64,000 bases of DNA, taken from NCBI RefSeq assembly GCF_900343015.1, contig NZ_LR025108.1, positions 124,001 to 188,000 on the forward strand. The letters are read 5' to 3'. Shown piece after piece: positions 2,180 to 29,403 of the stretch. The stretch comes from Arsenophonus endosymbiont of Aleurodicus dispersus. Lineage in GTDB: Bacteria > Pseudomonadota > Gammaproteobacteria > Enterobacterales > Enterobacteriaceae. Each line of letters opens with the position of its first letter. Position 1 is the stretch's first letter. A program made the position numbers and the translations under genes. The notes under the pieces were generated by a model, which was not told where the DNA came from, did not search any database, and saw only the letters and a list, made by a program, of their open reading frames with translations.

Positions 2180-3598
2180 ATGTCAAAACAACAAATTGGT
2201 GTAGTTGGTATGGCGATTATGGGACGTAATTTAGCGCTCAATATTGAAAGCAGAGGTTATTCTGTTTCAATTTTTAATCGTTCTAAAGAAAAAACCGATG
2301 AAGTGATAGCAGAAAATCAAGGTAGAAAATTAATTCCTTGTCATACAATTAAAGAATTTGTTGATTCATTAGAAACACCGCATCGTATTTTATTAATGGT
2401 AAAAGCTGGTGAGGCTACAGATAAAACCATAACCTCCTTGACACCTTATCTGAATAAGGGTGATATCCTAATAGATGGTGGTAATACTTATTTCAAGGAT
2501 ACTATCAGACGTCATCAAGAACTTTCAGCGCAAGGATTTCACTTTATTGGAACTGGCTTTTCTGGTGGTGAAGAAGGTGCATTAAAAGGACCATCTATCA
2601 TGCCAGGTGGAAAGAAACAAGCTTATGACTTGGTGGCGCCTATATTTAAAAAAATTGCAGCTAAGGCCGATGGTGAACCATGTGTAAGCTATATTGGTCC
2701 TGATGGTGCAGGGCATTATATAAAAATGGTACATAATGGAATCGAGTATGGTGATATGCAGCTCATTGCTGAAGTTTATTCAATACTTAAAAATACATTA
2801 AAATTAAATAATGAAGAATTAGCTGATATTTTTACTGAATGGAATAAAGGTGAATTAAGTAGTTATCTAATCAAAATTACGGCTGATATTCTTCGGAAGA
2901 AAGAAGAAAAAACTGATAATTATTTAATTGATGTAATATTAGATAAAGCAGCTAATAAAGGAACTGGAAAATGGACCATTCAAAGTGCTTTAGACTTAGA
3001 AGTACCTATTACACTTATTACAGAATCAGTATTGGTACGTTATCTCTCATTTTTAAAAGAGCAGCGAGTAGCAGCAGCAAAAATCCTATCTGGACCAGTT
3101 GTTAACACATTTAAAGGAGATAAGTCGGAATTTTTTGAAAAAGTTTATCGTGCACTTTATTTAGGGAAAATAGTTTCCTACGCTCAAGGTTTTCAACAAC
3201 TAAAAGCAGCATCAGATGAATATCAATGGCAACTAAATTATGGTGAAATAGCTAAAATTTTCCGTGCTGGTTGCATTATTCGGGCGCAATTTTTGCAAAA
3301 AATTACCGATGCGTATATCCAAAATCCATCTTTAGCAAACTTAATGTTAGCTCCTTATTTTAGGAATATTACTGACAAATATCAGCAATCATTACGAGAT
3401 ATTGTTTGTTTTGGTATACAAAATGGTATTCCATTACCCACGCTTACGGCAGCAATTTCTTATTATGATAGTTATCGCTCTGCTGTTTTACCAGCAAATT
3501 TAATTCAGGCACAACGTGATTATTTTGGTGCTCACACTTATACAAGGATTGATAAGGAGGGGACTTTTCATACTGCATGGTTAGAAAAAAAAGAGTAG
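2180..3598 (+). CDS. gnd: 6-phosphogluconate dehydrogenase, decarboxylating
   Basis: Oxidises 6-phosphogluconate to ribulose 5-phosphate with NADP, the last step of the oxidative pentose-phosphate branch, in the cytosol. The 472 residues match the family length (468 in E. coli). The Rossmann fingerprint [20 protein letters not shown] is at the N-terminus, the family signature [11 protein letters not shown] near residue 127, and the catalytic lysine in [13 protein letters not shown] near 183. The C-terminal helical domain ends [14 protein letters not shown]. The start ATG at 2180 is preceded by GGGTGG. It works with tktA elsewhere in this window to supply NADPH and pentoses. A degraded copy of its middle lies about 300 bases downstream. 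Confidence 0.97.
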
Positions 3599-3880: not shown

Positions 3881-4105
3881 GGAATAGTATAAAAGATCAA
3901 TTAAATAGTTATCTAATCAAAATTACGGTGGATATTATTCGGAAGAAAGAAGAAAAAACTGATAATTATTAAATTTATATCATATTAGATGAAGCCACTA
4001 ATAAAAGAAATGGAAAATTGACCATTATAAGTGGTTTATACTTAGAAGTATCTATTACACCAGAATCAGTATTGGTACGTTATCTCTTATTTTTAAAAGA
4101 GCAGC
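3881..4105 (+). pseudogene. gnd: decayed partial copy of the middle of gnd
   Basis: About 225 bases align with gnd positions 2841-3066. Blocks of perfect identity include 33 bases at 3938-3970 and 26 bases around 4061-4086. They alternate with diverged blocks. The copy carries an in-frame stop right after the DNY codons, a 9-base loss (gnd has an extra CTTATTACA unit) and several substitutions, so it cannot make protein. Neither the N-terminal nor the C-terminal part of gnd is present. This is directly visible in the sequence. The best reading is a remnant of a tandem duplication of gnd. Confidence 0.9.
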
Positions 4106-24349: not shown

Positions 24350-24845
24350 GCTATTTATCGTACGTAGCAATTATTTTAATAAATTGCTACAGCGTCTTTA
24401 GCAAATCAATCATTTTAACCTAATTACTCAATTTTCATTAATTGCCAAAGGCAATTATGGTAGATAATAATTACATAGTCTACCAAAAGTAGTGAACAAC
24501 ACCACTACCATTAAGTAAACAGTTAATTTCAAATTTTAAAACTAGGGATAATATCCATAATTGAAAATATGTTAAATTTTTTTGCTTCGTATTCGATGTA
24601 ACCTACATTTAATAATAAAAATTTATGATAACTGCCTACTATTTCAATATAAATTAAAGATTACCTTAGGTTATATAGATTAAAATAATAATCTAATTTA
24701 GCAAGCAATTAAGTGTAATTTGACACTTGCAAGCTATTTTTTATTAGGCTACTATTTTAAAGGTTACATTCATAAATTATGATGTTTTTTACGTCTAGGA
24801 GTTGGAAAACATTGTTATTTATCACTCCTATGTTTCAAGTAGACA
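24350..24845. other. non-coding gap before the heat-shock gene
   Basis: E. coli has glnD and dapD beyond map; no trace of either was recognised. The right part holds an imperfect inverted repeat (TAGGAGT near 24796 with ACTCCTA near 24824) just ahead of the sigma-32 type promoter. Otherwise nothing is seen. Confidence 0.4.
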
Positions 24846-24873
24846 CTTGAAAAATCATATAGTGTCCCTATAT
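24846..24873 (+). promoter_or_regulatory. sigma-32 (heat-shock) type promoter
   Basis: CTTGAAA at 24846-24852 and CCCTATAT at 24866-24873, separated by 13 bases, closely fit the RpoH consensus (CTTGAAA, 11-16 bases, CCCCATNT). The start codon of the small heat-shock gene lies 50 bases downstream. A degraded copy of this element is found at 28961-28978. Confidence 0.75.
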
Positions 24874-24922
24874 GAGTAATGTAAATATCTATTCAATCAA
24901 AAATATATAAAAGGAGGATGCT

Positions 24923-25414
24923 ATGGCCTATCGTTCTTTATCTCTTATACCTACATTTAACAATAGTCTGCTTAACGATCGTTTTACCCAGATGGACAAC
25001 CTATTCAGTAGGCTAACCGGAGAAAAGCCGCTGTCCGATGCCCCAGCTTATAACCTGTTGAAAAAAAATGATCAGCATGAATTCACAGTTAGCGTACCAG
25101 GGTATGCACGGGATGAACTTGATGTCTCTGTGCTCAATAATCAGCTTACAGTGCGGGGCAAACCTGACGTCGAGAAAAGTGAAGAGACAGAAGAAAAGGA
25201 AGGGATAAAATGGTTACATAAGGGCATCAGTAAAAGTGAATTTACTTTAAGTTTTACCCTTGAGCATCGGATAATTATTCAACAGGCCAATCTGGCTAAC
25301 GGACTTTTAACGCTGCACTTTACCTACGATATTCCCGAACAGGAAAAACCACAGCAGATTGCCATTGGTGTTCAAAATAAATCAGATAGTGTGCTTAAAC
25401 ATAATGCTGCTTAA
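24923..25414 (+). CDS. ibpA: small heat-shock protein, Hsp20/IbpA family
   Basis: ATP-independent holdase that binds unfolding proteins. The 163 residues hold a central alpha-crystallin domain (about 45-145). Typical features are FTVSVPGYARDELDVSV near residue 51, NQLTVRGKP near 73, and NLANGLLTLHF near 124, the last in place of the usual A-x-x-x-n-GvL motif. Start at ATG 24923 follows a near-perfect Shine-Dalgarno AAGGAGG. A sigma-32 promoter and a strong terminator flank it. Codons look richer in G and C than neighbouring genes, which may reflect strong expression and selection, or a different origin. It is not a positional match to E. coli ibpAB, so strict orthology is uncertain; the symbol marks the family. 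Confidence 0.88.
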   Translation: MAYRSLSLIPTFNNSLLNDRFTQMDNLFSRLTGEKPLSDAPAYNLLKKNDQHEFTVSVPGYARDELDVSVLNNQLTVRGKPDVEKSEETEEKEGIKWLHKGISKSEFTLSFTLEHRIIIQQANLANGLLTLHFTYDIPEQEKPQQIAIGVQNKSDSVLKHNAA

Positions 25415-25418
25415 ACTT

Positions 25419-25448
25419 AACGCCCCTAATTGGGGCGTTTGTTTTTTT
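25419..25448 (+). terminator. intrinsic terminator after the small heat-shock gene
   Basis: The stem ACGCCCC / GGGGCGT with a loop of TAATT is followed by TTGTTTTTTT, a textbook Rho-independent terminator 5 bases past the stop. With the sigma-32 promoter upstream it shows a single-gene transcription unit. Confidence 0.9.
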
Positions 25449-25784
25449 GTTATCTAAATGAAGCTTAGTGTTTTTCCATCTCAAACAACTTGGACAAAAA
25501 TATTTTAATTCAGTGCTGGTTAAACCTTATTGTATTAAGGCTTGAGCATTAGTCATATATTATCTAAGAATGTAATTATTACTTAACTCAAGTAAAAAAA
25601 TTAATTTATTCTTCATACTAAAGCAATCTCAACAATCAGCACTATATGGATATTAATTTCTTCACCACAATAAAACAATATAGTAAAATAATCTACAACC
25701 ATTTGTTACCATGATGCTATCGCGTATTAATGGTTAACTTATGTTCTATCTTTAATAGTTGTAGTAAATGATTAATAAAAGCAA

Positions 25785-27956
25785 CTAATTTTCAGTTGGA
25801 TCAACATCAATATTCCATTTTACTTTTCGACTTTCAGGATATGCCATAATTTCAGGTAAAATATGCGCAAAAAATTGTTGTAAATAGGAACGTGAAGGAT
25901 GCTGGAGTAGTAATTGCCAACGGAAACGACCTGCTAGCTTAGCTTTGATCGCTGGGATAGGACCCATTAACCAAAGTTGTGAGTCGCGCATGTTATGTTG
26001 TTCTATATATTGACGAAGCTTGTTTAAAAAAATAGGTGCAGATTCATTTTTATGATCTTCTGAACGGATCATTATATGACTGCTATATGGTGGCAAAAAA
26101 ACATCACGTCGTTCCGCTAGTGTTTCTGTCGCAAACACGTTATATCCTTTTTTTAATAATGTTGATAATAATGGATGTTCAGGGTGGTAGGTTTGTAGAA
26201 TCACTTCACCATGTTTACCAGCCCGGCCAGCCCGGCCAGATACTTGAATATAAAGTTGTGCAAACCTTTCTGTTGCCCGATAATCACTAGAAAAAAGTGC
26301 GCCATCTACATTAAGTAGGGCAACTAAAGTAATATCAGGAAAATGATGTCCTTTAGCAAGCATTTGGGTTCCGATTAAAATACGAGCACCACCTGTATAG
26401 ACAGGGGCCAGCTGTTTTTCTAATGCACCTTTCCGCCTAGTGGTATCTCTATCAATACGGGTAAACGGTATATTAGGAAAAAGCTGGTTAATTGCCTCTT
26501 CTAACTGTTCAGTTCCTAAACCTACAGGGACCAGATGTGTTGAGCCGCAGTATGCGCATTGTATTGGAATTGGCAGTTGACTATTACAATGATGACAACT
26601 TAACTGACGTTGGTAATGGTGGAGTGTATAATAATGATCACAACGTGAACACCCGGCAATCCAGCCACAATCATGGCAAATCAATGTTGGTGAGTAGCCG
26701 CGACGATTTAAAAATAACATAACTTGATTATTCGTTGCTAGATGATCTTTAATACGTTGAATTAATGGGTTTGACATGCCATATTTTAATGGCTGACCCT
26801 TTAAATCTAGTAAATGTTGACTTGCTAGCTTGGCTTTTCCAGCTCTTTGGGTGATATCTAGACGGTGATATTTTCCTTGCTCAATATTATAGATACTTTC
26901 TAACGAAGGTGTTGCTGTACCCATAATAATTGGAATATTCTCTTTTTTGGCGAGAAAAACAGCTAAATCACGAGCATGATAACGCCATCCATCTTGTTGT
27001 TTGTAAGAGTTATCATGTTCTTCATCAATAATGATTAAGCCAAGATTGGCAAAGGATGTGAATAATGCAGAACGAGTACCAATCACAATAGCACTGTCTC
27101 CGTTTTGTGCACGCAACCAGACTGCCAGTCGTTCACTATTATTTAATGCGGAATGTAGTAAATGAACAGGTGCATTAAATCTCTCACTAAATCTTTTGAT
27201 AGTTTGGGGAGTAAGACTAATTTCTGGCACCAGGACTAATACTTGTTTACCTTGCGATAAAATATTTTCAATAACATTAAGATAGACTTCTGTTTTACCT
27301 GAACCAGTGATCCCTACTAATAACCAAGGCATAAAAGTTGTTTTAGAACTTATTGCTCCTACAGCTGTTGACTGTTCTAGGTTAAGTTTCGGTTTTTTAC
27401 AGAGATGAAAAGTAGAATGCCAGCTTTCTATTTTTTGTTGAATGGGGAATAGTTTAATCACAGTTTGTGACTTATTTTTATTTAATTCATGTTTTGTAAT
27501 TTGGTGATGATAAAGGGGTTGTTGCTGTAGTAATACTAGGGCATGTTGCTGTTTCGGTCCTTTTTTAAGCTGGTTTAGGCTAAAAGTTTTACCTTGCTGA
27601 GTTATTTCAGATTTACATCGTAGATTAAATGTTGTTACTTTGCCTTGCCGCAGTAAAACTGGTAATGCATGAAATAGCACTTTCCCAATCGGGTGATGGT
27701 AATACTGAGATGCCCAAAGTAGTAATGACCATAAACTATCCGAAAATAGCGATTCTTGATCTATTACTTGTTCAATAGTTTTTAATTGTTTACAATTGAG
27801 CTTAATATTTTGATTATGCGATAATACAATACCTAAGATAGTACGCTTGCCAAAAGGAACTAATACCCGGCAACCTTTTATTGGTAAAGGAAGATTGGAT
27901 TGGTAATCAAAAACCCGCCTCAGCGGAAGAGGAAGCGCTACTTGAACAATAGCCAT
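25785..27956 (-). CDS. priA: primosomal protein N' (PriA helicase)
   Basis: 3'-5' helicase that recognises stalled forks and reloads the replisome. The 723 residues compare with 732 in E. coli. The N-terminal 3'DNA-binding domain starts [15 protein letters not shown]. Walker [13 protein letters not shown] is near residue 220, the DEEH box near 320, and GTATPSLES near 348. The zinc-binding module between helicase lobes has paired CxxC sets ([21 protein letters not shown]) near 430-470. Motif VI reads [13 protein letters not shown]. The ATG at 27956 has AGGAAA upstream. A 90-base exact copy of part of its 5' region lies at 28854-28943 across rpmE. Confidence 0.97.
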
Positions 27957-28189
27957 TGTTAAGTTTTCCTAATAATTTTATGCAAATTATTTATTAAAGA
28001 TAAAAAATAGAAGATCACATTATTTTAATATATTTAATTGCGCTATAAATATATTTTATGTATTATTTTATTTACAGCCATTGTGAGTAATTTAAATTAT
28101 TATAACAACTATTCTTAATTGATTTGACATCTGGTGTCTAGCGTTAGGATTATATAGATATAGCGATACGGCCTAAGTAGAGACTGACT

Positions 28190-28405
28190 ATGAAAAAATA
28201 TATTCATCCTAAATATAAAGAAGTTAATGCTACCTGTTCTTGTGGTAATGTAATGAAAATAAAATCAACTGTTAATCATCATCTGCACTTGGATGTTTGT
28301 GGGAGATGTCATCCATTTTATACAGGTAAACAGCGTGATGTAGCTGCCAGCGGGCGTGTTGATCGCTTCAAGCAGCGATTCAATCTTATCGGTCTGAAAA
28401 AATAA
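28190..28405 (+). CDS. rpmE: 50S ribosomal protein L31
   Basis: Zinc-containing L31 that bridges the subunits. The 71 residues match E. coli (70). Start [12 protein letters not shown], zinc ligands Cys16, Cys18, Cys37 and Cys40 all present (CSCGNV and DVCGRC), then [20 protein letters not shown]. It is the zinc-binding (C+) form. Divergent from priA with a 233-base spacer, the arrangement seen in E. coli. Confidence 0.97.
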
Positions 28406-28675
28406 TAATGGTTAAATAATACCAGCTAAAATCATACTTACTTATAATATGGGTGGGTAACGCTTCAGTGTATTGATTGCTATTATATAATTCTTAAAAC
28501 GCATGAAAAAAATAATTACTATTCCAAAGTCATCTAGATCAATATCTTTTATCGCATAGCTAGTTTTACTGCGTATTTAATTTCATCATCGTCATTTGGC
28601 AACGGTTAATGAGTGTAAAATTATTAACATAGTAATTCACTATTATGTAACATGGCATAAATTATTAATAAGCTA
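28406..28675. other. non-coding spacer after rpmE
   Basis: No protein remnant recognised. In the tandem-duplication reading it would contain the decayed remains of the second small heat-shock gene, but I see no resemblance to it. Confidence 0.35.
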
Positions 28676-29012
28676 TATCTCGTCTACGAATGTATTTTTT
28701 CTTTAAATCAAGTAAAAAAATTATTTATTCTTCATAATTTCACCGTCATCAATAGTTGTTACATGGAGAAAATAGGCTTTGTTTTGCAGCAGTAAAACAA
28801 GTAGTACATAAAATAATACTTCCACTATCGGATGATTGATTGTAATACTGACTATAAACTATCCGAAAATAGCGATTCTTGATCTATTACTTGTTCAATA
28901 GTTTTTAATTGTTTACAATTGAGCTTAATATTTTGATTATGCGGTAATACCGAAGGCGTACTTGAAAAATTACCCCTAGTAATGTAAATATCTACTCGAT
29001 AAAAAATATATT
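28676..29012. repeat. decayed duplication of the ibpA-priA neighbourhood
   Basis: Three pieces align with sequence to the left. 28690-28740 resembles 25568-25620, the spacer between the small heat-shock gene and priA. 28771-28955 resembles priA 27643-27836, with 28854-28943 identical to 27731-27820 over 90 bases. 28961-29012 resembles 24846-24909, the heat-shock promoter and leader, with its spacer shortened. No piece can be expressed as protein. The order fits the remains of tandem copies of a block running from the heat-shock promoter through priA. Confidence 0.88.
28771..28955 (-). pseudogene. priA: partial copy of priA 5' region
   Basis: This carries the part of priA that encodes residues about 40-105, with small deletions and substitutions at its left end and 90 unchanged bases at its right end. 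Both ends of the gene are absent. It lies on the far side of rpmE from its parent, in the same orientation as priA. The mix of exact and diverged blocks suggests either uneven age or gene conversion from the intact gene. Confidence 0.88.
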
Positions 29013-29403
29013 AAGAATAATTAAATTATATTAATCACTATGGGCTGAATTTATACTTTATATTTTTGACATTGATATTAATATCGACTTTAATCTAAAA
29101 TAAAAAATTTTTGCTAAGATCGTACATTAATTTCTGTATCCATTATTGGGTTATAATTAATTATTGCCCAATTGGATAAATAATAATATTTTAATAGACC
29201 CTAAAGGGAACTAGAATGACCATATCAAATTATATCACCTTAATATGCACACCATTTGCATTAATAAAATGGCTATAACTTGACTGTTAAATATTTGTCA
29301 ATAATTTTTGACAAAAATATTTATCTGCTATTCTATTCCAATCTAAAATAAACTATATCATTAGCGGCCAATTCCGCATTATCGCTATAGGAAAATAGGT
29401 GTC
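29013..29403. other. leuS upstream region
   Basis: AT-rich, no protein remnant recognised. The ATG of leuS is preceded by AGGAAAATAGG. A promoter is expected here but no convincing -35/-10 pair could be chosen among the many AT-rich candidates. Confidence 0.35.

Follow-up and report, generated by a model that had tools for sequence, protein, structure and literature searches.

The spacer between rpmE and leuS in the genome of ARAD, the Arsenophonus of the whitefly Aleurodicus dispersus, holds a small, real mosaic in which gene conversion has probably acted on an old duplicate made nearby, an ordinary case of a known process. The account that fits best, and that we regard as probable, is an old local duplication that was later patched by a short gene-conversion tract running from priA into a relic of priA (priA'). 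We analyzed a window of 64,000 nucleotides, positions 124001 to 188000 of the one-contig, 663,125-bp genome, and searched eight further genomes of the genus, the five closest of which are 86 to 88% identical to ARAD over priA. The genes that we take to be priA, rpmE, leuS, gnd, proS, metJ, and yihX were named from their protein sequences, while the Hsp20, PF04754, RecA, RuvB, RecB, and MutS identities come from family searches. Coordinates of the features are collected in Table 1.

Table 1. Features around the rpmE-leuS spacer (positions within the window)
Feature	Position	Strand	Basis
ibp promoter region with 5' UTR, from which the rightmost piece derives	24845..24911	+	Local alignment; Markov shuffles
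ibp, Hsp20 heat-shock gene	24923..25414	+	PF00011, E = 2.5e-13
Left relic of Rpn/YhgA-like (PF04754) gene	25548..25710	-	Similarity to relatives' copies; 25548-25617 matches 28668-28736
priA (presumed), open frame of 723 codons	25785..27956	-	Named from protein sequence; colinearity with relatives starts at 25736
Putative donor of the conversion, inside priA	27731..27820	-	Identity to 28854-28943
rpmE (presumed)	28190..28405	+	Named from protein sequence; colinear with relatives
metJ relic (presumed; metJ'), truncated at about 28669	28503..28669	-	Named from relatives' open frame
Right relic of Rpn/YhgA-like gene (rpn'), copy of the left relic	28668..28767	-	Alignments; shuffles
priA relic (priA'); border with rpn' uncertain within about 28759-28767	28759..28950	-	Alignments
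90 identical bases within priA', inferred gene-conversion tract	28854..28943	-	Alignment to priA
Relic of ibp promoter and 5' UTR (ibpP'), deletion between boxes	28960..29014	+	Local alignment; shuffles
yihX relic (presumed; yihX'), 5' end	29017..29095	+	Three relatives' loci at 74-75%; translation; named from protein sequence
leuS upstream flank, common to relatives	29101..29403	+	Alignment to relatives

Without gaps, priA and its copy align over 109 nt at 96% identity (28842-28950 with 27719-27827), and alignment confirmed the claim of the earlier note that a core of 90 bases is identical (90/90, 28854-28943 with 27731-27820). When gaps are allowed, priA' extends over 28759-28950 against 27613-27827 of priA. 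Two other copied pieces lie beside it: 28668-28736 resembles 25548-25617 (rpn), and 28960-29014 resembles 24845-24911 (ibp promoter and 5' UTR). All three copy sequence from 1 to 4 kb leftward in direct orientation. A self search of the whole genome gave E values of 3.4e-48, 7.8e-12, and 5.9e-7 for the priA, rpn, and ibp pieces, respectively. We also compared 28668-28767, 28765-28853 (priA' minus the 90-base block), and 28951-29016 with 24350-28405 and found that the observed score was matched in 0 of 500 first-order Markov shuffles for each piece. The whole-genome E values and the shuffles together rule out chance similarity. The earlier note had staked its reading on similarity outside the 90 bases, and our self-alignment, of the dot-plot type, found it there. 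As for the flanking pieces that it had described, the match to the sigma-32 promoter of ibp stands (the sigma-32 boxes are presumed from their consensus), but the supposed piece of heat-shock gene spacer is instead a relic of rpn, a transposase-like gene.

The divergence of priA' from priA is a mosaic. To the left of the block, in the same register, priA' is identical to priA at only 65 of 95 bases, with gaps. Beyond its right end only seven more bases align, six of them identical, before similarity ends, so the right limit of the block is weak. The difference between 90/90 and 65/95 is highly significant (Fisher p = 1.7e-10), and such a run arose in 0 of 100,000 simulations of even divergence, the test and the simulations both treating sites as independent. 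Within priA, the block differs from the five close relatives at 10 to 13 of 90 sites (85.6 to 88.9% identity) and ranks 55th among 139 sliding windows. Thus, its divergence in priA is ordinary, and neither constraint nor slow evolution accounts for the identity of the two copies, while recent copying does. These observations favor the suggestion of the earlier note that a recent conversion fell upon an older duplication.

The affinities of the two parts of priA' differ as well. The left part is 68.4% identical to ARAD priA and 69.5 to 70.5% identical to that of the five relatives. At sites where ARAD differs from all five, the left part has the relatives' base at five of seven, while the block has ARAD's base at five of five. 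The patch therefore groups with ARAD priA (5/5 sites) and the left flank does not (2/7), although the sites are few. Three of the five sites with the relatives' base cluster at the left edge, where the border with rpn' is uncertain, and L015, a more distant relative, has ARAD's base at four of the five block sites. Since priA is open and priA' carries stops and gaps, we infer that the conversion ran from priA to the relic. Conversion in the other direction is disfavored, though conceivable. It would suit the amino acid changes in the block, which affect 5 to 7 of 29 codons relative to the five close relatives (1 of 29 in the left flank); however, the relatives also differ among themselves at these amino acids, and priA is open.

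The whole spacer is a chain of relics that abut one another, in the order metJ', rpn', priA', ibpP', and yihX', followed by the leuS flank. Colinearity with the relatives holds over rpmE and metJ' up to 28669 and resumes with the leuS flank at 29101. The interval is a synteny break: in five of five close relatives, the leuS flank is distant from priA or on a different contig. We recognized the rpn pieces through a gene that is present in many copies in one of the genomes, G007, and whose protein matches PF04754 (E = 4.4e-81). In relatives, complete or nearly complete copies of the gene align with parts of the left relic (25617-25688 and 25617-25710). The relics are antisense both at the site between ibp and priA and at the one that follows metJ'. 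We ruled out plain spacer DNA as the nature of the 25548/28668 pair, because similarity to relatives identifies both as relics of an Rpn/YhgA-like gene. A match to PF04754 itself is absent from the ARAD genome (0/1 with a cut-off of E <= 1, against positives in 3 of 14 control genomes), and the relics were found by DNA similarity only. They are present although the ARAD genome has been described, in the part of the genome paper cited here, as having no mobile genetic elements (PMC6167482).

We disfavor the reading of ibpP' as what is left of a second, ancestral ibp gene's promoter, for it scores 66 against ARAD's own 5' UTR but only 24 and 18 against the 5' regions of the two ibp genes in one relative. 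The best match among relatives to the ARAD Hsp20 gene (24923-25414) is 74% identical and lies in genome G001 (L041), with a second copy about 2 kb off. The genes near the G001 match are presumably pilus-like, and these neighbors, together with the second Hsp20 copy, suggest mobile DNA. More broadly, a spacer in a reduced symbiont genome can be read as a string of gene relics, a record of neighbors since lost and of the joints of rearrangements.

An old local duplication would have inserted part of the ibp-rpn-priA block, in direct orientation, between rpmE and leuS, and substitutions and deletions would then have worn this copy down to three short relics. Later, homologous recombination probably transferred a stretch of 90 bases or more non-reciprocally from the living priA into priA'. 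Such a conversion would have reset the 90-base stretch to identity while the in-register left part stayed decayed. The duplication may have been tandem, and the conversion presumably used a RecA pathway. A 3,120-bp unit beginning at 25548, with its second copy beginning at 28668, covers rpn' and priA' if later deletions are allowed; ibpP' would have to come from yet another, third copy or from an independent event. The earlier note had read the pieces as leftovers of tandem copies. Their origin in the ibp-priA neighborhood and their direct orientation agree with this, but the order of three pieces is weak evidence for it, and templated insertion fits that order too.

Not all of the pieces need share one date. 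A run of decayed bases is common to the two rpn relics and lacking in nine of nine aligned pieces from relatives (three of the nine are near-identical to one another). The copy was thus made in this lineage after decay began, or it was itself homogenized. The aligned rpn pair is about 84% identical, versus 68% for the left part of priA'; the rpn pair therefore seems less diverged, and it is uncertain whether all pieces arose at one time.

We searched for other local copies by comparing 284,001 bases with themselves (the window and 12 further stretches, 43% of the genome) at E <= 1e-6, a threshold for which the ibp pair is too weak. The search yielded the priA and rpn pairs together with palindromes, AT-rich matches of 57 to 67% identity, one pair in gnd, and, at the end of the contig, a pair of identical 54-base stretches. 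In the gnd pair (86.5% in the self search), an internal piece of gnd, 2837-3065, is copied in direct orientation to 3882-4105 (gnd'), 284 bases past the end of gnd and before proS. This copy is identical at 199 of 223 bases. It too lies at a synteny break: the matches to gnd and to the sequence before proS are apart in six relatives, and two have no match on the proS side. At 13 of 15 sites gnd' has ARAD's base, which L066 also has at four of these 15. These sites and the 199/223 identity indicate that the left part of priA' predates gnd'. At the difference rate of gnd', 90 identical bases have a chance of 3.5e-5, which makes the block younger than gnd'. So the order of ages, as read from these comparisons, would be the left part of priA' as the oldest, gnd' as younger, and the block as the youngest. 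With gnd', a later and incomplete copy next to proS, local duplication is seen to be a recurrent event in this genome. At the contig edges, the start (L047 1-339) is an imperfect palindrome of 339 bases, and the end carries the identical 54-base repeat (L058 7252-7305 and 9948-10001) of sequence 2.7 kb upstream. An unclosed duplication of dnaX at the contig edge is mentioned in the cited part of the genome paper (PMC6167482).

The main alternative to duplication with later conversion, though an unlikely one, is replicative template switching at the rpmE/leuS joint, by which rpn, priA, and the ibp promoter would be templated inserts with no tandem array, and the 90 bases would stem from a later switch. 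In its favor, the pieces are short and closely abutting, and lie where the leuS flank and priA are apart in five close relatives; gnd' likewise sits at such a break, between gnd and proS. Moreover, Rpn proteins are reported to stimulate RecA-independent recombination, for which template switching has been proposed (PMC5350276). However, all of the pieces are direct, their order is given equally by a tandem array, and no Rpn gene remains in the ARAD genome (0/1). With no PF04754 match left, a role for Rpn is only a thought. The diverged, in-register part beside the block also argues against template switching, since a homologous copy must already have been in place when the last step occurred, and such a step is conversion no matter which enzyme carried it out. 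In a combined scenario that we hold to be rather improbable, rearrangement would have proceeded partly by template switching, perhaps aided at one time by an Rpn nuclease that has since been lost, leaving short templated copies at the junctions (rpn', priA', and ibpP' by leuS and gnd' by proS), and recombination would later have homogenized the remnants.

An assembly artefact, in which the relic block was filled or corrected with priA reads, is very improbable. In length the repeat comes close to a single read, and the cited sections of the genome paper describe whole-genome-amplified DNA, 100-base mate pairs, scaffolding, gap filling, and correction, but also a coverage of 1,698x (PMC6167482). 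A chimera explains neither the diverged stretch that lies in register nor the mismatch located seven bases before the right end, and an already diverged relic would not collapse with priA. Selection to keep the block identical, for instance as an RNA or a regulatory element, would agree with the sharp block limits, and nothing speaks for it directly. The same stretch of priA has changed at 10 to 13 of 90 sites relative to each of the five close relatives and is thus not specially conserved, which rules selection on the block out for practical purposes.

We found an open recA frame of 357 codons, and ruvB and mutS gave family hits above the cut-offs with no stops. At recB (G000:C1:70020-73576), there were two overlapping hits with internal stops, so RecBCD may be broken. 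The recombination gene set of ARAD thus looks partly broken, but with recA, ruvB, and mutS open, recombination is possible and not very unusual. The earlier note, which had called such activity unusual for a reduced symbiont, overstated this point, even though recB is interrupted. In a comparison with two other whitefly Arsenophonus, recA is listed among the ARAD-specific clusters in the cited part of PMC6167482. The block would be a relatively dated trace that recombination between repeats continued in a strongly reduced symbiont that kept recA.

In the open-licence texts that we searched, we found no published account of the priA relic. The paper on the same 663,125-bp genome reports, in the sections cited, the dnaX duplication and 274 pseudogenes (PMC6167482); the terms "gene conversion" and "recombination" occur 0 times in its main text. 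A wider contig scan showed no Arsenophonus among the matches listed (best 80 loci, 586 relatives), a set from which records near ARAD may have been left out. Interlocus gene conversion in general is short, one-way copying between duplicates that leaves a mosaic of old and new divergence, and the ARAD case is alike, except that one of its partners is a decayed fragment. This kind of conversion is already known from other symbionts, as the cited portion of PMC7821994 describes. Portiera of some whiteflies and Tremblaya princeps, whose genomes are unstable, resemble ARAD in being insect symbionts with reduced genomes that contain repeats and rearrangements and bear signs of gene conversion among the repeated stretches. 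However, the same portion links those cases to the loss of genes for replication or repair, dnaQ among them (PMC7821994), whereas ARAD has open recA, ruvB, and mutS and a single short tract.
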